This document shows positions 1,465 to 33,121 of a stretch of DNA of 37,205 bases, piece after piece. The stretch spans positions 1 to 37,205 of the forward strand of contig CALUTK010000016.1 of NCBI GenBank assembly GCA_944323675.1, written 5' to 3'. The stretch is from Candidatus Gastranaerophilales bacterium. GTDB taxonomy: Bacteria > Cyanobacteriota > Vampirovibrionia > Gastranaerophilales > Gastranaerophilaceae. Made by a program: the position numbers and the translations under genes. A model generated the notes under the pieces. The model searched no databases. It was not told the origin of the DNA and worked only from the letters and a program-made list of their open reading frames with translations. The stretch's first letter is position 1; each line of letters starts with the position of its first letter.

Positions 1465-1470
1465 AACATA

Positions 1471-1499
1471 AGTTTATCACGAGTATAAAATTAATACAA
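1471..1499 (-). promoter_or_regulatory. folP promoter abutting the start codon
   Basis: On the minus strand TTGTAT (1494-1499), a 17-base spacer and TAAACT (1471-1476) with an extended TG-A precede the folP ATG by exactly 6 bases. Predicted transcription would begin at the A of ATG. The -10 and -35 are moderate matches (4/6 and 3/6). The geometry matches six other genes in the window. Confidence 0.5.
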
Positions 1500-4220: not shown

Positions 4221-4523
4221 ATGAAAAATTTTCTTATACTTACAGCAATATTAACCGTGCTGTTTGTAGCATTTATTGATACAAAAGCCAGAATAGAAGA
4301 ACTTGATGAAGTTGCTGCGGCAACGCAGGTGCAGGTAGAAATGAAGCCGGAATTAAACAAATCTGACGGAAGCGGAATAAGAGAAAAATACGATACCATA
4401 CAGCCGCCGCAAACTCCGCCGATTACAGCACCCGATACAAAGCCGCTCCAGACTTCTCAAGATAGATTATCCCCCCAGCCGCAAAATAAATACCAGCCCG
4501 TAATGCCTGACTATAAACCGTAA
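4221..4523 (+). CDS. Small membrane-anchored Pro/Gln-rich protein
   Basis: 100 residues, unknown function. The ATG at 4221 is preferred over one at 4215 because AAAAGGAG ends 6 bases before it. Residues 3-20 (NFLILTAILTVLFVAFID) form a single hydrophobic segment with little positive charge, either an uncleaved anchor or a signal peptide. The rest is acidic then Pro/Gln/Thr-rich (QPPQTPPITAPDTKPLQ), low-complexity and probably unfolded outside the membrane. Its last 13 bases overlap the 3' end of the convergent gene. It resembles periplasmic linker proteins but no family is recognised. Confidence 0.7.
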   Translation: MKNFLILTAILTVLFVAFIDTKARIEELDEVAAATQVQVEMKPELNKSDGSGIREKYDTIQPPQTPPITAPDTKPLQTSQDRLSPQPQNKYQPVMPDYKP

Positions 4524-5326
4524 ATCATTTCACCATATTCGTGTTCCAACGGTTCTTCTTCATCTTCAAGTTTTTTCGCGGCAGGATTTGTACTTTCATA
4601 GCGGAAGAAATTTCCTGAAGGTTTGATATCCGTATTCTTATTCAAAACAGGGCTGACTGTTTTCGGGAAAAATCTTAAGATTACATTCTGCGCAATAACA
4701 TTTGAGAGTAAATCCTCAGAATATGACTGTATGTAAGCATATTTAGCATAACTTTCGGATGCTTTTTGCGCAGTAAAACTCCCGTCAGAAGAATTTAAAT
4801 TTTTAGTATAACCGCCACGCCACATTACAAGATCATTTGCTGTATCAAGCAAAACCGCATCCGTCTCCATTGTATACGGATAAGAAATATTTAAGCCGCT
4901 TGATAATTCCAGAATTTCCCATACGCTTCGTTTTACTGTGGAATCTTCAACAGAAACACTGTTTGATATCAGCAAAACTGAATTAGCAGAAAACAAGCGC
5001 GCAAGCTGTTTCATTGCCGGAAAATCTATATTTCCTCGGGAATTAAATTTATCCGCCGCCGCTTTAACTGCTGTTTTTATATTAGGATTTTGACTAAGTG
5101 TTCGCCTGATTTCAGTTACTGTCGGAGATTTTATTTTTCCGGTTGAATTAAAGTAATTAACCAAATCATCCGCAATAATTTCCGACACCTCCGGATAACA
5201 GTAATAATTCTCGCAAACTTTCAAAATATCCGCAGGCAGAACTACTACGTTAAATGTAACGGCTTTTGCCGCAGGGATAAGCATAATGCATATTAAAAAC
5301 AACAAAAATCCGACGAATTTTTTCAT
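4511..5326 (-). CDS. Exported protein of unknown function
   Basis: 271 residues from the ATG at 5326; an in-frame GTG at 5344 is less likely. MKKFVGFLLFLICIMLIPAAKA is a classical signal peptide, probably cut after AKA. The mature part has alternating strands and helices (VVVLPADILKVC...IIADDLVNYFNSTGKI) reminiscent of periplasmic proteins that sense or assemble envelope parts, but no family is recognised. Cys40/Cys44 (CENYYC) could form a disulfide. The C-terminal 25 residues are acidic. No Shine-Dalgarno precedes the ATG; instead an extended -10 box ends 6 bases upstream. Convergent, overlapping stops with the gene at 4221-4523. Confidence 0.8.
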   Translation of the reverse strand: MKKFVGFLLFLICIMLIPAAKAVTFNVVVLPADILKVCENYYCYPEVSEIIADDLVNYFNSTGKIKSPTVTEIRRTLSQNPNIKTAVKAAADKFNSRGNIDFPAMKQLARLFSANSVLLISNSVSVEDSTVKRSVWEILELSSGLNISYPYTMETDAVLLDTANDLVMWRGGYTKNLNSSDGSFTAQKASESYAKYAYIQSYSEDLLSNVIAQNVILRFFPKTVSPVLNKNTDIKPSGNFFRYESTNPAAKKLEDEEEPLEHEYGEMIYGL

Positions 5327-5332
5327 AATTTT

Positions 5333-5341
5333 ATTGTAACA
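5333..5341 (-). promoter_or_regulatory. Extended -10 promoter abutting a start codon
   Basis: Minus strand TG-T-TACAAT, with TACAAT at 5333-5338, ends 6 bases before the ATG at 5326. No convincing -35 is seen, as is common for extended -10 promoters. Confidence 0.45.
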
Positions 5342-5420
5342 CACAATTTTTCATACGGGTAATGGATTACTATTTTTTTTAATTTTATTAAACTGGTAAG
5401 AAACTACAAAGGAGCATTGT

Positions 5421-6330: not shown

Positions 6331-7578
6331 TTATTCTCTAGAACAGCATTTACGCTCTGTAAGCATTGCTGACATAACTTTTTTTGCTTCGCTCAACTGA
6401 ACATCATGCCTGTCTCTGATATCCTGTGCCGTGAATTGTACTTCAACATCCGGATTTATACCTTTTTTATTAATATCCACACCTGACGGTGTTAAATATT
6501 TTGCAACAGTAAGGTTAAGACCCGTCTCATTCGGCATAGGTATAATTTTTTGCACCATACCTTTTCCGTAAGTTCTGGTTCCGACAAGTTTCGCTTTATG
6601 GTAATCTTTCAAGGCACCGGAGAGAATTTCGCTTGCAGAAGCAGAGGCTCCGTCTATCAGGACAACAACCGGCTTATCAATTCCGAAATCTGTATTCTGC
6701 GCCTGAATATCATATCTATAACCGTTACGGCCGACAATACTCACAAGTTTTCCATCGGGAATAAAAAGGTTTGCTATAAATATTGCATTCGGCAAAAGTC
6801 CTCCGGTATTGCCGCGTAAATCAATGATAAGCCCTGCAGTGTCTTTTGTTTTTTCAAGCGCCTCCAGAAACTCATTCGGTGTGGTTGAGCCAATAAAACT
6901 GGAAATCTGGATATAACCGATATTTTTATCTACAACACTTTTTACCGATTTAATTTTTATTTCCTTACGCATAACGTTTTTTACAAGTTTATCCTTGTCT
7001 CTTAATACCGTAAGTTTTACAAATGTATTTTCAGGGCCGCGGACAAGATTTGCAACTTCTGCTATAGAAAGCCCCTTGGCATCTTTGCCGTCAATATTCA
7101 GGATAATATCCCCGTTTTGAAGATTAACACTCTGGGCAGGCGTTCCGTCTATAACATTGATAATCTGAATTTTTCCTGAGATATCCGCAATATTCACTCC
7201 TATACCGGTAATTTTTGCATTAATAGAAGTATTTTGATCAGCATATTCGGACTTTGACATATAACGGGAATAAGGATCGTCAAGGCTTGCCAGCATTGTA
7301 TCTACTGCAACTTTTGCATCCTCATCCGTCTTGATTTTTCCGTGATAATGCTCTTTCCAATATCTCCACTGCTGATGGTTCAGGGTCGGGTCGTAATAGT
7401 TATCCCTGATTTCTGTCCAAACATTATCAAACAATTTTTGTGAAGAGACATAATTTTTATTAAGAAGTTCTTCATCAACAGTATACAGGCTGTTATCGTT
7501 TGCAACCATTACAAATTTGTTTATCGCAAACAACGCAAGCACTACCGCAATAAAAATATAAAGTTCTTTTCTCTTCAT
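6331..7578 (-). CDS. ctpA: S41 carboxyl-terminal processing protease (CtpA/Prc type)
   Basis: 415 residues from the ATG at 7578; an in-frame TTG at 7596 is the alternative. A single N-terminal hydrophobic segment (LYIFIAVVLALFAINKFVMV) anchors or exports it to the periplasm. A PDZ domain follows (GIGVNIADISGKIQI ... GDIILNIDGKD), then the S41 core: LIIDLRGNTGG, DGASASASEILSGAL with catalytic Ser314, and GTRTYGKGMVQ with Lys339, the Ser-Lys dyad. Such proteases trim or degrade envelope proteins from their C-termini. The tail ends in ERKCCSRE. No Shine-Dalgarno; a -10 box lies 6 bases before the ATG. Confidence 0.95.
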   Translation of the reverse strand: MKRKELYIFIAVVLALFAINKFVMVANDNSLYTVDEELLNKNYVSSQKLFDNVWTEIRDNYYDPTLNHQQWRYWKEHYHGKIKTDEDAKVAVDTMLASLDDPYSRYMSKSEYADQNTSINAKITGIGVNIADISGKIQIINVIDGTPAQSVNLQNGDIILNIDGKDAKGLSIAEVANLVRGPENTFVKLTVLRDKDKLVKNVMRKEIKIKSVKSVVDKNIGYIQISSFIGSTTPNEFLEALEKTKDTAGLIIDLRGNTGGLLPNAIFIANLFIPDGKLVSIVGRNGYRYDIQAQNTDFGIDKPVVVLIDGASASASEILSGALKDYHKAKLVGTRTYGKGMVQKIIPMPNETGLNLTVAKYLTPSGVDINKKGINPDVEVQFTAQDIRDRHDVQLSEAKKVMSAMLTERKCCSRE

Positions 7579-7584
7579 ACGATT

Positions 7585-7613
7585 ATTTAACAACAACGTG
7601 TTTTTATAATCAA
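7585..7613 (-). promoter_or_regulatory. ctpA promoter abutting the start codon
   Basis: Minus strand TTGATT (7608-7613), 17-base spacer, TTAAAT (7585-7590), then 6 bases to the ATG at 7578. Each box matches the sigma-70 consensus at 4/6. Predicted leaderless transcript. Confidence 0.5.
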
Positions 7614-7659
7614 TATACTTTTTATGTAACCTGATTAATTATTCAGAAACTTCAACAAA

Positions 7660-10535: not shown

Positions 10536-11333
10536 TTACAATTGGAATTTTGTATTAAATCTTATTTGCGACCAGGATCGATCATTGTTAATATCATAAG
10601 TTGTTCCGGCGCCGAATTCAAGTTTCATCCTGTCATCTTTCAAAGGATTAACCGAAAGCACAAATTCTCCCTTTCGCCTGTTTCTGGTAATATCAGTCGA
10701 TAACACCGGAGAAAACGAAAACATTTTATTCAGCTTCAATTCAGGCGCGATATAAAAATTATCAGTATTCAACCCGTAAGTTGTAAGATTATTTTTCTTA
10801 AACGCCGAACTTATTGCAAAATGTTCCCGCTCATATCTTGTAAACAGTGTCGTCGAGCGCTCAAGCTGGGAATTATCAATCCCTGTATTATACAAAGTTC
10901 CAAGAGAAAAATTTCCGTGTTTTTCAACGGATTGTACACTCTGAGGCGCAATACTGTATTCTTCATTACTGTACATTGAATAAGTTTTTCGGCTTTTCGG
11001 GTGTATTTTCTTTGTATCAACAATATTTTTAGATTCAAACTTTTGCGGAACAGTGAGGTTCAGCACAAAATTATTTTCTTCATCTTTCAAATAAACAACA
11101 TCCGCTGCATCGACATATTGTTCATAATCTAGAGCGTTTATATCCTCAGGTTCAGGAACCGTGGAGACTTCTTCCTCCTCATTTGAACTTGTAATATCGT
11201 CAGGCGAAACATTTTTCTCTTCCGGAAGCGTCCATATAAAAATATTCGGCAGTTTTACATCCTCTGTTTGCTCCTCAGCAAAAACCGGAATACAAAACCA
11301 TAAAACAAGAATTATCAAAAAAACTCTTCTCAT
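10536..11333 (-). CDS. Probable outer-membrane beta-barrel protein
   Basis: 265 residues from the ATG at 11333. MRRVFLIILVLWFCIPVFAEE is a signal peptide. An acidic linker (about 22-75, rich in Glu/Asp/Pro) follows. From about residue 125 the protein is a series of short amphipathic strands alternating with turns (FSLGTLYNTGI, ISSAFKKNNLTTYG, MKLEFGAGTTYDI) and ends SQIRFNTKFQL, an aromatic/hydrophobic C-terminal strand as used by BAM substrates. About 8-10 strands seem possible. No named family. The start lacks a good Shine-Dalgarno (a close AGGT only), and TATAAT ends 6 bases upstream. Divergent from gltX. Confidence 0.75.
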   Translation of the reverse strand: MRRVFLIILVLWFCIPVFAEEQTEDVKLPNIFIWTLPEEKNVSPDDITSSNEEEEVSTVPEPEDINALDYEQYVDAADVVYLKDEENNFVLNLTVPQKFESKNIVDTKKIHPKSRKTYSMYSNEEYSIAPQSVQSVEKHGNFSLGTLYNTGIDNSQLERSTTLFTRYEREHFAISSAFKKNNLTTYGLNTDNFYIAPELKLNKMFSFSPVLSTDITRNRRKGEFVLSVNPLKDDRMKLEFGAGTTYDINNDRSWSQIRFNTKFQL

Positions 11334-11339
11334 ACCTGA

Positions 11340-11368
11340 ATTATACCACAAAACCGACCCTTTGACCA
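11340..11368 (-). promoter_or_regulatory. Promoter abutting the outer-membrane protein start
   Basis: Minus strand TGGTCA (11363-11368), 17-base spacer, extended TG-G-TATAAT (11340-11345), then 6 bases to ATG. The perfect -10 makes this one of the best leaderless candidates. Confidence 0.65.
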
Positions 11369-13401: not shown

Positions 13402-13596
13402 ATGGACATTCAATTTATTTCAACTACAGAAAAAGAAGAAACCGAAATTGAAGCATTAGCAAGAGCAATTGAAGAAAACAATGCAAACAAATTAATCGAA
13501 ATTTCGGATGCTAACGGGAATTCACAGGTATTCACATACAATAAATTCCTTGAAATTTTCGATGATTACGGTCTTGAAGGTTTTGCAATGATATAA
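13402..13596 (+). CDS. Small acidic protein, paralogue of the previous gene
   Basis: 64 residues, no recognised family. GGAG lies 7 bases before the ATG. It shares the C-terminal module [FY][ST]Y-x-KF-x-EI-[FY]-D-[DE]-x-GLEGF with its upstream neighbour and probably arose by tandem duplication. It has an acidic N-terminal helix (EKEETEIEALARAIEENNA). The rsmH promoter overlaps the end of this gene, so both small genes can be expressed apart from rsmH. Possible roles are a regulator or adaptor for the division cluster; this is only context. Confidence 0.7.
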   Translation: MDIQFISTTEKEETEIEALARAIEENNANKLIEISDANGNSQVFTYNKFLEIFDDYGLEGFAMI

Positions 13597-13612
13597 TCCT
13601 TTGTGCTAAAAT
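13583..13612 (+). promoter_or_regulatory. rsmH promoter abutting the start codon
   Basis: TTGCAA (13583-13588), 18-base spacer, extended TG-C-TAAAAT (13607-13612), then 6 bases to the ATG at 13619. No Shine-Dalgarno precedes rsmH. The -35 lies within the end of the upstream small gene. Confidence 0.55.
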
Positions 13613-13618
13613 TCTTTT

Positions 13619-14548
13619 ATGGAATTTAAGCACTACACTGTAATGAAAAATGAGGCTGTCGACGCGCTTGAGTGCCGTGACGGTCTTGTTTACGTTGATT
13701 GTACGCTCGGCGGAGGCGGACACAGTGAACTTATACTCCAAAGAATTTCCCCAAACGGGAAACTAATTGCTTTTGATATTGACGACGACGCAATTGCCGC
13801 GGCGTCCGAAAGATTAAAAGATTACAAGAATTTAACAATTGTAAAAGATTCCTATACAAATATTAAAAAAGTTTTACATTCCCTCGGAATTGAAAAAATC
13901 ACCGGCGGAGTGCTGTTTGATTTAGGGGCATCTTTTCACCAGTTTAACAGGGCTGAAAGAGGTTTTTCATTTTCGAAAGAAGCTCCGCTTGATATGAGAT
14001 TCAATCAGGACGCAGACTTTTCAGCGTATGATGTTGTAAACAGTTATCCTGAAAATGAACTGGTAAGGATTTTCTCTGAATACGGAGAGGAAAGATTTTC
14101 CAAAAGAATTGCGCGGGCCATTGCAGAAAAAAGAAGACTTAAAAAGATTGAAACGACGACAGAACTCGCTGATTTAATCATAAATTCAACCCCTCATATA
14201 AAAAGTTCCATCCATCCTGCGACACGGGTTTTTCAAGCAATAAGAATTGAAGTAAACCACGAGTTACAAAATGTTAAAAATACTCTGGATGATGTGTTGG
14301 ATTTACTCGACGTTGGTGCTATAATAAGTATTATAAGTTTTCACTCTTTAGAGGACAGAATAGTGAAACACTTATTCAAGTACCATTCACAACGGTGCCA
14401 TTGCGAAAAAAATCAAATGATTTGCACATGCCCGCCGCCTAAATTGGAACTTGTCAACAAAAAGCCAATAACGGCAACAGAAAAAGAGGTTTCGGAAAAT
14501 CCACCCTCACGGAGTGCAAAATTAAGAATCGCAAGATGTATTAATTAA
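13619..14548 (+). CDS. rsmH: 16S rRNA (cytosine1402-N4)-methyltransferase
   Basis: 309 residues, full length for RsmH/MraW. SAM-dependent N4 methylation of C1402 in the 16S rRNA decoding site; RsmI, at 32294-33106, methylates the 2'-O of the same nucleotide. Motifs: HYTVMKNEAVDAL at the N-terminus, VDCTLGGGGHS (26-36) SAM loop, LFDLGASFHQFNRAERGFSF, PLDMRFNQ, and FHSLEDRIVKHLF near the C-terminus. The usual LGVSSxQ reads LGASFHQ. Followed after 41 bases by the FtsL-like gene, the canonical dcw order. Predicted leaderless. Confidence 0.96.
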   Translation: MEFKHYTVMKNEAVDALECRDGLVYVDCTLGGGGHSELILQRISPNGKLIAFDIDDDAIAAASERLKDYKNLTIVKDSYTNIKKVLHSLGIEKITGGVLFDLGASFHQFNRAERGFSFSKEAPLDMRFNQDADFSAYDVVNSYPENELVRIFSEYGEERFSKRIARAIAEKRRLKKIETTTELADLIINSTPHIKSSIHPATRVFQAIRIEVNHELQNVKNTLDDVLDLLDVGAIISIISFHSLEDRIVKHLFKYHSQRCHCEKNQMICTCPPPKLELVNKKPITATEKEVSENPPSRSAKLRIARCIN

Positions 14549-16067: not shown

Positions 16068-18227
16068 TTATCTGCAAAGAGAACATTCACCGCAAGAACA
16101 TCCGAGAGCTTCTTTAGCTTCGTCAACTCTTACTTTGATACGTCCGTCAACTGCGATACCTTCGCCTGTTGTTTCAGAAATTAACAACGGGTTGATATCT
16201 AATTCGTCAATGAATTTGAAATCACTTACCAGTTGAGATAATCTCAGCAAGGTTTCTTTGATTTGATCCATTTGGGCAGGTTTTGTACCTCTTGCACCTT
16301 CTAACAATTTATATGCTTTAACTGATTTAATCATTTCTTCAGCGTCAACATCAGTCAGAGGAGCAATTCTGAAAGTTACGTCTTTCATAACTTCAACGAA
16401 AACGCCGCCTAACCCGAACATCATCATAGGGCCGTATTGAGGGTCTGTTGCGATACCGCAAACCATTTCGCGGTTACCTTTAACCATTTCCTGAATGATT
16501 ACACCTTCCAAACCTTCGAGCAAGCCTTTTGCTTCAAGTCTTTCAAGCAGGCCTTTGTATTCTTTTCTCAACTGTTCTTCAGATTTGATATTAACAACGA
16601 CACCGCCAACATCGGTTTTGTGGGATGTAGTTTTAGAAGTCATTTTCATAACTACAGGGTAACCGATTGAATTACCGAGTTCAACAACTTCATCCTCATT
16701 AGTTGCAAGACCGTATTTGCAAGCGCGAATTCCGTAAGCTTGAAGAACGTCGATAGATTCAAGAGTTGTAAGCTGTGCTCTGCCTTCTGAGAGAGACTTT
16801 TTGATAATACTTTCAACTTTAGCTCTGTCAACGTCGTAGCAAGGAATTTTTCCTTCCGGTCTTTCCATCCAAAGTCTTTGCTGGTTCAATCTGTTCAAAC
16901 CGTCAGCAGCCTGTTCTGCGTACATAAAGAACGGCATATTAACATTCATATCAGACAGTTTTGAGAAGAACTCGTTAGTTGTCATAAATACACCGACAAC
17001 AGGTTTTTGAGGATTTTTAGCCTTAATTTCCATCAAAGCTTTTGCTACATCAATATCTTTCAAGCCTAAGAACGGAAGATAGATTGTGATAATCATATCA
17101 ACGTTTTCATCGGCAATAACTGTTTCAAGAGTTTGTTTGTAGTGTTCGATAGGGGCTGACGCAATCATATCGATAGGGTTTTTAACAGATGCAGCTGATG
17201 GCAGGAAGCTTCTCAATTTTTCTTTTGTAGCGTCTGAAATTTTAGCCATCTGCATACCGTATTCACAAACAGCGTCGGTTGCCATAATACCAGGGCCGCC
17301 TGAGTTTGTGATGATTGCAACTCTGTCACCTTTCGGGATTGGACAGTTAGCAAAAACTTTTGCAGTTTCAAAGAGGTTCTGCAAAGAAAATTCTCTGATA
17401 ACGCCTGACTGTTTTAATAAAGCTGCAGCAGCTTTATCAGCACCTGCTAAAGAACCTGTGTGAGAAGATGCTGCAGAAGCACCTGCAGCAGAACGTCCTG
17501 CTTTTAATGCCAAGATAGGTTTTTTCTTACTTACACGGGAAGCTAATTTTCTAAAGTTAGCAGGGTTCTGGATTGATTCCATATAAAGCAGAATCTGCTG
17601 AACATCATCATCATTTTCCCAGTATTCAATAGCAGTTTCAGCGTTAACATCAGCCTGATTGCCGATTGAAATAAACTGAGCAAAACCGAGGTTGAGGTCT
17701 TTTAAGATATTCAAAATACCGCCGCCCAGTGCGCCTGATTGAGATACGAAACCGATGTTTCCTCTTTCCGGAAGAGATTCAGCAAAACATCCGTCCATTC
17801 TGATATCAGGGTGAGTGTTTACAACGCCCAAGCAGTTAGGACCAACACATCTCATACCGTATTCTTTAATTTTTTCAACTAACTGTTTTTCAAGTTCTGC
17901 GCCTTCTTTACCGGTTTCTTTGAAGCCTGCAGTGATAATACAAAGGCCTTTGATACCTTTTTCGTGGCACTGGTCAATTGTTGAAAGTACGAATTTTGCG
18001 TTTACAACAATAATTGCTAAATCTATATCACCCGGAACTTCAAGAACTGATGTGTAAGCCTGAAGTCCTTCGATAATTCCGCCTTTAGGATTTACAGGAT
18101 AAATTTTACCGTTGAAATTGTATTCCTGTAATCTTTTCATAATATCAGAACCGATTGTATGTTCTTTTGTAGATGCACCGATAACCGCAATTGATTTCGG
18201 TTTCATAATTTTGTCTAACAAAGTCAT
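16068..18227 (-). CDS. ADP-forming acetate--CoA ligase (acyl-CoA synthetase, fused alpha-beta)
   Basis: 719 residues. Converts acetyl-CoA (or another acyl-CoA), ADP and phosphate to acid, CoA and ATP, a fermentative ATP-yielding step. Order: CoA-binding domain (IAVIGASTKEHTIGSDI, from 13), ligase-CoA domain with VSQSGALGGG (161-170), a SSHTGSLAG segment with the phosphorylatable His256, and a C-terminal ATP-grasp beta subunit (GYPVVMKMTS ... VIIQEMVKGNREMVCG ... LDINPLL). Alpha and beta are fused in alpha-beta order. The tail ends ALGCSCGECSLCR, five residues of Cys/Gly pattern not required by the family. AAAGGA lies 7 bases before ATG. Last gene of a three-gene operon. Confidence 0.94.
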   Translation of the reverse strand: MTLLDKIMKPKSIAVIGASTKEHTIGSDIMKRLQEYNFNGKIYPVNPKGGIIEGLQAYTSVLEVPGDIDLAIIVVNAKFVLSTIDQCHEKGIKGLCIITAGFKETGKEGAELEKQLVEKIKEYGMRCVGPNCLGVVNTHPDIRMDGCFAESLPERGNIGFVSQSGALGGGILNILKDLNLGFAQFISIGNQADVNAETAIEYWENDDDVQQILLYMESIQNPANFRKLASRVSKKKPILALKAGRSAAGASAASSHTGSLAGADKAAAALLKQSGVIREFSLQNLFETAKVFANCPIPKGDRVAIITNSGGPGIMATDAVCEYGMQMAKISDATKEKLRSFLPSAASVKNPIDMIASAPIEHYKQTLETVIADENVDMIITIYLPFLGLKDIDVAKALMEIKAKNPQKPVVGVFMTTNEFFSKLSDMNVNMPFFMYAEQAADGLNRLNQQRLWMERPEGKIPCYDVDRAKVESIIKKSLSEGRAQLTTLESIDVLQAYGIRACKYGLATNEDEVVELGNSIGYPVVMKMTSKTTSHKTDVGGVVVNIKSEEQLRKEYKGLLERLEAKGLLEGLEGVIIQEMVKGNREMVCGIATDPQYGPMMMFGLGGVFVEVMKDVTFRIAPLTDVDAEEMIKSVKAYKLLEGARGTKPAQMDQIKETLLRLSQLVSDFKFIDELDINPLLISETTGEGIAVDGRIKVRVDEAKEALGCSCGECSLCR

Positions 18228-23475: not shown

Positions 23476-25134
23476 CTACTTACTCAAGATAGTAATAACA
23501 AACTCGCTGCCCTTTCCAACCTCACTGTTTACAATAATTTTCCCGTTATGTTTTTCAATTATTTTGGCAGAAATGGCTAAACCAAGCCCCGTGCCGATTC
23601 CTACTCCTTTTGTTGTATATCCGGCTGTGAAAATTTTATCAATTTCCTCTTCCGGAATTCCTTTTCCGGTGTCTTTTATGCTCACAGTCAAGGTTTCGCC
23701 CTCAAACTTTGTTGTTATTGTTATTGTTCCTTTTCCCTTAATAGCTTGACATGCATTGACCAAAATATTGGTAAATACTTGATTCAGCATATTCGGGTAA
23801 CAGTTTATCAGCGGAAGATTTCCGTAATTTTTTACAATTTCTATTCGGTTTTTGGTTTCGTGGCGGATTAATTCCAGCGTCAGATCAAGCTCTTTATTTA
23901 TATCAGCCTCCTGAAGCTCCGCCTCATCAAGCCTTACAAATTTTTTTAAAGAGACCACAATGTTACTTATCCGCTGAATCGCTTCACTGTCGATATGGTT
24001 GATTTCCTGCATTATATCTGAAATTTCGGCTTCTTTTATCTGCGGAATAAGTTTTGCTAATAAGCCGTTATTTGATTTTATAGAGGCTACCGGAGTATTA
24101 ATCTCATGCGCAACTCCGGCAACTAATTGCCCTAATGATGCCATTTTTTCGGAATTTATAAGCTGCAATTGGGTTTCTTTCAATTCTTTCAGAGCATTTT
24201 TCAGTTCTTTAACGGTTTGTATATTCTTTTGATAAAGCCGTGCTCGTATAATAGCGTTACCGAGCTGGAAGGATATCGCTTCCAGAATTTCAAGTTCTTC
24301 TGATAATTCACGTTTATGATAAGAAAGTAAAACTATGACTCCTATTAGCTTTTGGAGATGATATACAGGAACAACAACCCGCATTACTGACTGTTTAAAA
24401 GGTTTTGCATCAACGTATTCTTTTAGGCAGTGGACTACTGAAATTCTGTTATCGCAGATTGTATCAAAAGTTTCACTGTCAAAGGCTATCGGGATATCCT
24501 GCACGGAATTTTTTCCGCCGTACATTTCTATTATTTTGAAGTTTTTGTTTTCGGCTTCCGCATAATACGCCTTAAAAGCTCCGAACATAAGAGCAAGTTC
24601 CGTAAGCGCTGATTTTAAAATTTTTGAAATATCTACAGATTCTCTGACAATATTAGAAACCTTGTTTATGAGCGCAATTCGGATGGCTTGCGATTGCGCT
24701 TTTTGTTTAATTTTTTGTAAGTCTTCATTTTCTTCTTCTAATTTTTTGTAATCATTTTGAAGCTTTTCATATCGTTTTTGAGATTTTATCAGTTCATTTT
24801 GTGCGCTTACATCAGAGAAAAAGAAAATTGCATAATTACCTTTTTTAATTACATACATATCGTAATAGGAAATATTTTCTCTGTTATGCTGATAAGAAAC
24901 ACAGGCAAAAAAGTCCTCTTTGCAATTAAGCGCATGATAGATGGGAGAATAGTTTTCAAGGTTTTCACTTGAAAGAGGGCAGATATCAAAATTGTAGTTA
25001 TGGGAGAATTTTTTCAGAGTTGAAAAATCCGCAAACCAGCGTTTGAAAGTATAGTTTTGATAAACAACTTCACGCTTGTTATTGACGATTATGACAGCAT
25101 CCCTAAACTGATTAAATATGTCAAACTTCTTCAT
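23476..25134 (-). CDS. Cytoplasmic sensor histidine kinase (PAS-like, GAF, HisKA, HATPase)
   Basis: 552 residues. The N-terminal 1-110 is PAS-like (FRDAVIIVNNKREVVYQN ... YAIFFFSDVSAQNE). A coiled coil (about 112-150) leads to a GAF domain (about 165-300, ISKILKSALTELALMFGA ... VVVPVYHLQKLIGVIVL), a second coiled coil, then HisKA with the phospho-acceptor His343 in GQLVAGVAHEINTPVAS, and a HATPase domain (NILVNACQAIKG, DTGKGIPEEEIDKIF, GIGTGLGLAISAKII). No transmembrane segment, so it senses a cytoplasmic cue. No response regulator is adjacent. The ATG lacks a Shine-Dalgarno and has a -10 box 6 bases upstream. Confidence 0.95.
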   Translation of the reverse strand: MKKFDIFNQFRDAVIIVNNKREVVYQNYTFKRWFADFSTLKKFSHNYNFDICPLSSENLENYSPIYHALNCKEDFFACVSYQHNRENISYYDMYVIKKGNYAIFFFSDVSAQNELIKSQKRYEKLQNDYKKLEEENEDLQKIKQKAQSQAIRIALINKVSNIVRESVDISKILKSALTELALMFGAFKAYYAEAENKNFKIIEMYGGKNSVQDIPIAFDSETFDTICDNRISVVHCLKEYVDAKPFKQSVMRVVVPVYHLQKLIGVIVLLSYHKRELSEELEILEAISFQLGNAIIRARLYQKNIQTVKELKNALKELKETQLQLINSEKMASLGQLVAGVAHEINTPVASIKSNNGLLAKLIPQIKEAEISDIMQEINHIDSEAIQRISNIVVSLKKFVRLDEAELQEADINKELDLTLELIRHETKNRIEIVKNYGNLPLINCYPNMLNQVFTNILVNACQAIKGKGTITITTKFEGETLTVSIKDTGKGIPEEEIDKIFTAGYTTKGVGIGTGLGLAISAKIIEKHNGKIIVNSEVGKGSEFVITILSK

Positions 25135-25140
25135 ACATAT

Positions 25141-25169
25141 ATTATATTCTAACCGTACACCGCAGGCAA
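25141..25169 (-). promoter_or_regulatory. Histidine kinase promoter abutting the start codon
   Basis: Minus strand TTGCCT (25164-25169), 17-base spacer, perfect TATAAT (25141-25146), then 6 bases to the ATG at 25134. Best-formed leaderless promoter in the window. Confidence 0.7.
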
Positions 25170-32293: not shown

Positions 32294-33106
32294 TTATTCA
32301 TTTATAATCAGCCTGTAGACGTCATTTTTATTATACCCGTAAAGCGCCGATAGTATTGTTGAAATTTCTTTTGCTTTAAAATTTTTTTCTTTTAAAACAT
32401 TAATTTTTTCAATTATTTCACAGACATTTTGTTCTCTGCACGATTTGTAAACCATTCCGACAATTTCACCTTTCAGGGTGTTTTCGCTGAAATATTCTTT
32501 TACATGCTGAATACTATCTATTACAACTTCTTCAAAAACTTTCGTCAGTTCTCTGGCGATTGCAACCCTTGCTTGAGGTTCATATTCTGAAATTATTTCC
32601 AGAGTATCCATTAACCTGTTAGGGGATTCATAAAATATTACATCACATCCGGCCGACTGCTTTAACACCTCAACTATCTGCGATTTTGTCCGCGGTAAAA
32701 ATCCAACAAAGGCAAAAGGTTCATCTTCACGAGGAACCTGTGACAAAAATGTCACAACCGCATTAGCTCCAGGAAGCGCCGTTATTTTTATATTGTTCTT
32801 TCTCAATTCTTCTACCAGAATAGAACCCGGGTCACAAAAAAGCGGAGTTCCCGCATCTGACACCAGCGCCATTTTTTTGCCGGATTTTAAGATTTCCAAA
32901 AAAGATTGCAGGCGCTCTCTTTCATTAAACTTGTGATACGAAATACATTTTGTTTTTATATCAAAATGATTAAGGAGTTTCTGCGTAACCCGCATATCTT
33001 CGCACGCTATAACATCAACTTCACGCAAAACATCAAGCGCCCGAAATGTAATATCACCAAGGTTCCCGATAGGAGTCGGAACTATATAAAAATCGTATTC
33101 CTTCAT
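32294..33106 (-). CDS. rsmI: 16S rRNA (cytidine1402-2'-O)-methyltransferase
   Basis: 270 residues, tetrapyrrole-methylase fold. Motifs: YIVPTPIGNLGDITFRALD (7-25), DVIACEDMRVTQKLL, SYHKFNERER, VSDAGTPLFCDPG (usual GTPGISDPG), ITALPGANAVVTFL (usual LPGPSA), FYESPNRL, ARELTKVFEE and GEIVGMV. 2'-O methylates C1402 of 16S rRNA; RsmH, encoded at 13619-14548, adds the N4 methyl to the same base. The C-terminal extension (KEKNFKAKEISTILSALYGY) is the small helical domain typical of the family. No Shine-Dalgarno; an extended -10 ends 6 bases before ATG. Confidence 0.95.
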   Translation of the reverse strand: MKEYDFYIVPTPIGNLGDITFRALDVLREVDVIACEDMRVTQKLLNHFDIKTKCISYHKFNERERLQSFLEILKSGKKMALVSDAGTPLFCDPGSILVEELRKNNIKITALPGANAVVTFLSQVPREDEPFAFVGFLPRTKSQIVEVLKQSAGCDVIFYESPNRLMDTLEIISEYEPQARVAIARELTKVFEEVVIDSIQHVKEYFSENTLKGEIVGMVYKSCREQNVCEIIEKINVLKEKNFKAKEISTILSALYGYNKNDVYRLIINE

Positions 33107-33112
33107 AATAAA

Positions 33113-33121
33113 ATTTTAACA
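33113..33121 (-). promoter_or_regulatory. rsmI extended -10 abutting the start codon
   Basis: Minus strand TG-T-TAAAAT (TAAAAT at 33113-33118), then 6 bases to the ATG at 33106. No clear -35. Confidence 0.45.

Follow-up and report, generated by a model that had tools for sequence, protein, structure and literature searches.

How might a gene be expressed when, instead of a Shine-Dalgarno (SD) sequence, a promoter-like hexamer lies six bases before its start codon? The question is raised by a histidine kinase gene of a Candidatus Gastranaerophilales bacterium, a gut member of an order in a non-photosynthetic class of the phylum Cyanobacteriota. The window, the whole stretch of 37,205 nucleotides analysed, is an entire contig (C16) of a 1.81 Mb assembly comprising 82 contigs. 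In the initial annotation, seven of its genes, including the kinase, were proposed to share leaderless promoters in which a -10 box ends six bases before the ATG. All seven boxes are present with this spacing (Table 1), and none of the genes has an SD 4-mer (0/7). TANNNT occupies -12 to -7 in six of them (folP, the exported protein at 5326, the outer-membrane protein at 11333, rsmH, the histidine kinase and rsmI), and an extended TG is found at -15/-14 in five of the seven, the exceptions being ctpA and the kinase. The ctpA box shares the six-base spacing but reads TTAAAT, with a T in place of the second-position A of TANNNT. The accompanying claim that ribosome binding sites precede most other first genes in the window barely holds, with an SD 4-mer before 9 of the 17.

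Table 1. Promoters, genes and control locus in the window.
Feature	Positions	Strand	Description
Histidine kinase, putative leaderless promoter	25135..25169	-	-35 TTGCCT 25164-25169, 17-base spacer, -10 TATAAT 25141-25146, 6 bases, ATG 25132-25134
Histidine kinase gene, putatively read from the promoter at 25135..25169	23476..25134	-	histidine kinase family matches
folP, putative leaderless promoter	1465..1479	-	TG at -15/-14, TAAACT 1471-1476, ATG at 1464
Exported protein, putative leaderless promoter	5327..5341	-	TG, TACAAT 5333-5338, ATG at 5326
ctpA, putative promoter	7579..7613	-	TTGATT, 17-base spacer, TTAAAT 7585-7590, 6 bases, ATG at 7578; no TANNNT
Outer-membrane-like protein, putative leaderless promoter	11334..11348	-	TG, TATAAT 11340-11345, ATG at 11333
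rsmH, putative leaderless promoter	13604..13618	+	TGC TAAAAT 13607-13612, 6 bases, ATG at 13619
rsmI, putative leaderless promoter	33107..33121	-	TGT TAAAAT 33113-33118, ATG at 33106
Control: acyl-CoA synthetase-like gene with Shine-Dalgarno	16068..18227	-	

The same arrangement recurs throughout the genome. The window and 40 further stretches of its genome (G000) were sampled, amounting to 0.83 Mb or 46% of the total, and genes were called from codon-pair statistics with a home-made caller that uses no upstream motif, the starts being assigned from sequence alone. This gave 440 operon-leading ATG genes, 209 with an SD 4-mer and 231 without. Among the 231 SD-less genes, 51 have a TANNNT beginning at -12, compared with 3-20 at neighbouring positions and a mean of 9.6 +/- 3.0 at -12 in dinucleotide shuffles of the same genes. 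Elsewhere the hexamer is found at this offset from 2.2% of non-start ATGs and 4.0% of intergenic ATGs. Similarly, in 0.8 Mb from a genome of another genus (G004), it lies at -12 in 58 of 254 SD-less first genes, where shuffles give 13.7. The stricter TANAAT begins at -12 in 32 and 39 genes of G000 and G004, against 0-8 and 0-15, respectively, at nearby positions. The peak at -12 to -7 predicted by the initial annotation is therefore present, and confined to the SD-less group: only 3 of the 209 SD genes have TANNNT at -12. Part of this contrast is mechanical, however, as the hexamer and an SD fall on the same stretch of bases, and the absence of an SD 4-mer from 51 of the 54 G000 genes with TANNNT at -12 is likewise partly forced. 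Approximately 10 of the 51 sites are expected by chance, leaving an excess of around 40 genes per sample; by extrapolation, the genome would contain roughly 90 such genes, or about 9-10% of those leading operons.

The context of these hexamers is that of a promoter. When aligned, the 51 G000 sites read T-R-T-G-N-TATAAT, with TT at -35/-34. TG is found at -15 in 24 of the 51, but in only 7 of the 180 other SD-less genes (P 9e-13; 27/58 against 9/196 in G004), and T occupies -1 in 46 of the 51 and 80 of the 180 (P 1e-9; 50/58 against 107/196 in G004). Likeness to TTGACA peaks at spacers of 16-18 bp upstream of the hexamer; TG and -35 strength show no anticorrelation (means 3.5 and 3.6). Of 52 leaderless genes, 51 begin with ATG, compared with 180 of 208 among the other genes without an SD. 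At TGNTANAAT sites lying well ahead of SD genes in both genomes, T is the most frequent sixth base after the hexamer (53-61%), and the seventh is a purine in 62-69% of the 34-36 sites per genome. This points, modestly, to a pyrimidine-purine start signal at SD-led promoters with the same offset as the T-ATG of the leaderless genes.

The arrangement is also retained among relatives of the genes in the window. The rsmH gene is 79-90% identical to its counterparts in Candidatus Scatousia, which NCBI leaves unplaced, and in numerous genomes labelled 'Candidatus Gastranaerophilales', which puts the organism among the gut Gastranaerophilales. Across 80 relatives, the upstream DNA has widely diverged and many have one additional N-terminal codon; nevertheless, TANNNT is at -12 in 76, the spacing is seven bases in three more, and an SD 4-mer is found in none. 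For folP, the kinase and rsmI, orthologs were collected from 30 genomes representing 29 genera of the window's family: TANNNT is at -12 in 19, 15 and 14 of the 30, respectively, with a further five, six and two in which it lies one base further upstream (a seven-base spacing, or -13). Likewise, it is at -12 in 15 of the 23 recognisable relatives of the outer-membrane protein (plus two with seven-base spacing) and 12 of the 23 of the exported protein (plus three). Each of these five sets peaks at -12, the failures being mostly distant relatives. By contrast, among 29 relatives of the control acyl-CoA synthetase-like gene, TANNNT is never at -12 and an SD 4-mer is present in 23. In many relatives of the outer-membrane protein, a TTGA -35 is present and the TG of the window copy is missing, yet the six-base spacing is unchanged; to judge from these sequences, the type of promoter has turned over while its geometry has stayed. 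Between G000 and G004, 11 of 18 leaderless orthologs remain leaderless (with six- or seven-base spacing), while 3 of 119 SD genes have turned leaderless (P 2e-9). On these comparisons, it is the geometry that is conserved and not the sequence.

Two of these loci have further features of note. The rsmH gene begins 22 bases downstream of a small ORF of 64 aa with its own SD (region 13402-13618, +), and the putative leaderless promoter thus lies directly behind an apparent operon partner; no Pfam match was found for the small ORF. At the exported protein gene (4511-5344, -), the longest ORF opens with a GTG at 5344 and the motif-free caller picked the ATG at 5284. Starting at the ATG at 5326 gives a signal-peptide-like N-terminus (MKKFVGFLLFLICIMLIP), and the conservation of the leaderless geometry in relatives supports this start over that at 5284.

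At ctpA, the assignment to a common class has to be amended, as this appears to be a differently built, -35-dependent promoter. About 19 orthologs preserve the DNA of the region AGTATATTGATTA ... TTGaTGTTAAATAnTCGT-ATG, with an unusual -35 (TTGATT) 17 bases before an unusual -10 (TTAAAT); the six-base spacing is mostly kept, and TANNNT is absent. The level of DNA conservation across about 19 genera (window 7579-7623, -) is above that of every other promoter examined. A search for a regulon sharing the motif found a single copy only in the 0.83 Mb sampled, and where a ctpA paralog was seen, it mostly had an SD. The ctpA promoter may be under regulation or depend on a different sigma factor.

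The peak, the aligned promoter features, the purine-rich putative start position and the geometry of the orthologs all support the interpretation of the initial annotation, and these sites are very probably ordinary sigma70-type promoters placed to make leaderless mRNAs. Such a promoter, often with an extended -10 (TRTGNTATAAT) or a -35 16-18 bases upstream, would by its placement give transcripts whose first base is the A of the ATG. Such mRNAs would therefore have no 5' leader, and ribosomes would have to recognise the 5'-terminal AUG rather than an SD. For any single gene, a leadered mRNA could also arise from a promoter further upstream.

Three other explanations can be weighed against this one. 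The promoters might be real but start transcription 1-3 bases upstream, producing ultra-short leaders. The orthologs with seven bases between hexamer and ATG are in keeping with this, but most orthologs have exactly six, and bacterial RNA polymerase disfavours starting at the T at -1, making such leaders improbable. Slightly less probable still is that the TATAAT-like hexamer acts in translation, as an A/T-rich, unstructured, S1-type site on leadered mRNAs lacking an SD, a role that has been suggested in Bacteroidetes and Cyanobacteria. A published survey reports that neither SD nor leaderless signals are in use in many photosynthetic cyanobacteria (PMC3160421), and S1 domains are present in G000, including two S1-like proteins with four domains each. 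These two proteins (G000:C27:11833-12804 and G000:C28:11090-12070, in open frames of 368 and 364 aa) may be of interest for SD-less initiation in their own right; a search of the window's assembly for the 16S tail found no 16S. However, the one-base sharpness at -12, the extended TG, the -35 at 16-18 bp and the T at -1 are marks of a promoter, the latter three being ones that a translation signal would not need, and those outer-membrane protein orthologs that have a TTGA -35 in place of TG show the six-base spacing nonetheless; the reading of the hexamer as a translation enhancer was rejected on these promoter features. That the hexamers are chance occurrences in an A/T-rich genome, or that start codons have been mis-called, can be virtually dismissed, as TANNNT does occur often (some 10 per position across the 231 genes) but shuffles never gave more than 19 at -12 against the 51 observed, no motif was used in calling starts, and orthologs keep the geometry.

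Within the phylum, the signal that leaderless promoters would leave is unevenly distributed. Each of the 107 members sampled from the window's family has 10-56 copies of TGNTANAATN5TATG in its genome, while the reversed pattern mostly numbers 0-6; the lower counts of 10-21 are found in one genus of the family (g58). A simpler pattern agrees with this distribution across the class. One genome from another family of the order is weakly positive (14 versus 3 reversed), as is the sister family f6 (6-13 versus 0-4 reversed), and in the larger genomes of oxygenic cyanobacteria the motif stays close to background. A 0.4 Mb stretch from f6 (G018, L327-L346) has a broader TANNNT excess at -13/-12, with 21 at -12 against 6.2, and few SD genes (45/209), which suggests that this family is in an intermediate state. 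On these counts, only one family of the phylum carries the signal densely.

The genes involved are mostly conserved housekeeping genes, encoding TlyA-like, TsaD, QueF, MnmE, SmpB, RF-1 family, RNase PH and HisRS proteins, as well as UvrB, RecJ, a RarA-like protein, chorismate synthase, homoserine dehydrogenase, riboflavin and folate enzymes and two-component proteins. When Pfam matches of the leaderless set were compared with those of 40 random SD first genes, RNA modification accounted for 7 of 52 leaderless genes and none of the 40 SD genes (P 0.02), only a lead given that the category was chosen post hoc. Proteins with a hydrophobic N-terminus, taken as exported, are not enriched in the leaderless genes (16% versus 16%). 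It is conceivable, though rather unlikely, that leaderless initiation expanded in one gut family and was kept for particular housekeeping genes, among them the RNA-modification enzymes rsmH, rsmI, TlyA-like, TsaD, QueF and MnmE, forming a physiological class. If so, any regulatory purpose might be, for example, to favour these messages when the supply of ribosomes or initiation factors changes.

The mechanism itself is known. Leaderless genes adjacent to a -10 motif are established in Actinobacteria and Deinococcus-Thermus (PMC3160421; PMC12340547), and the 'TA-led' genes of Zheng et al. 2011 extend to some Firmicutes and others (PMC3160421). As described there, a -10-like hexamer some 10 bp ahead of the start takes the place of the SD, with a TG peak before the box in several low-GC genomes, both as found here; unlike the window's family, many Cyanobacteria in the survey use neither kind of signal, and the family is not named in it as far as examined. 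In Deinococcus-Thermus, TANNNT similarly lies 6-7 bp upstream of the ORF, with a separate GGAG group, and the promoter function of the ORF-adjacent -10 motif has been tested in Deinococcus (PMC12340547). Nearly one third of genes are of this type there, TACACT being the commonest box (PMC12340547), compared here with about a tenth of first genes, whose boxes are TATAAT or TAAAAT, roughly half of them with TG, and which have T at -1. For Cyanobacteria, the possibility of leaderless signals has been discussed (PMC5397173). In photosynthetic members leaderless transcripts, such as the 19 starts in Synechococcus elongatus UTEX 2973 (PMC6091082), exist but are rare, unlike in the window's family. 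In the literature searched, no paper pairs 'leaderless' with Melainabacteria, and within it this mechanism appears unreported for the Gastranaerophilales lineage.

In practical terms, gene callers expecting an SD may misplace leaderless starts, as the motif-free caller missed that of the exported protein, and the motif would mark promoters and start sites in uncultured genomes. An abundant gut lineage would join the bacteria with many leaderless genes, in a phylum recorded as mostly lacking them. As its sister families show little or no such signal, this contrast would make the gain of leaderless initiation both datable and testable.
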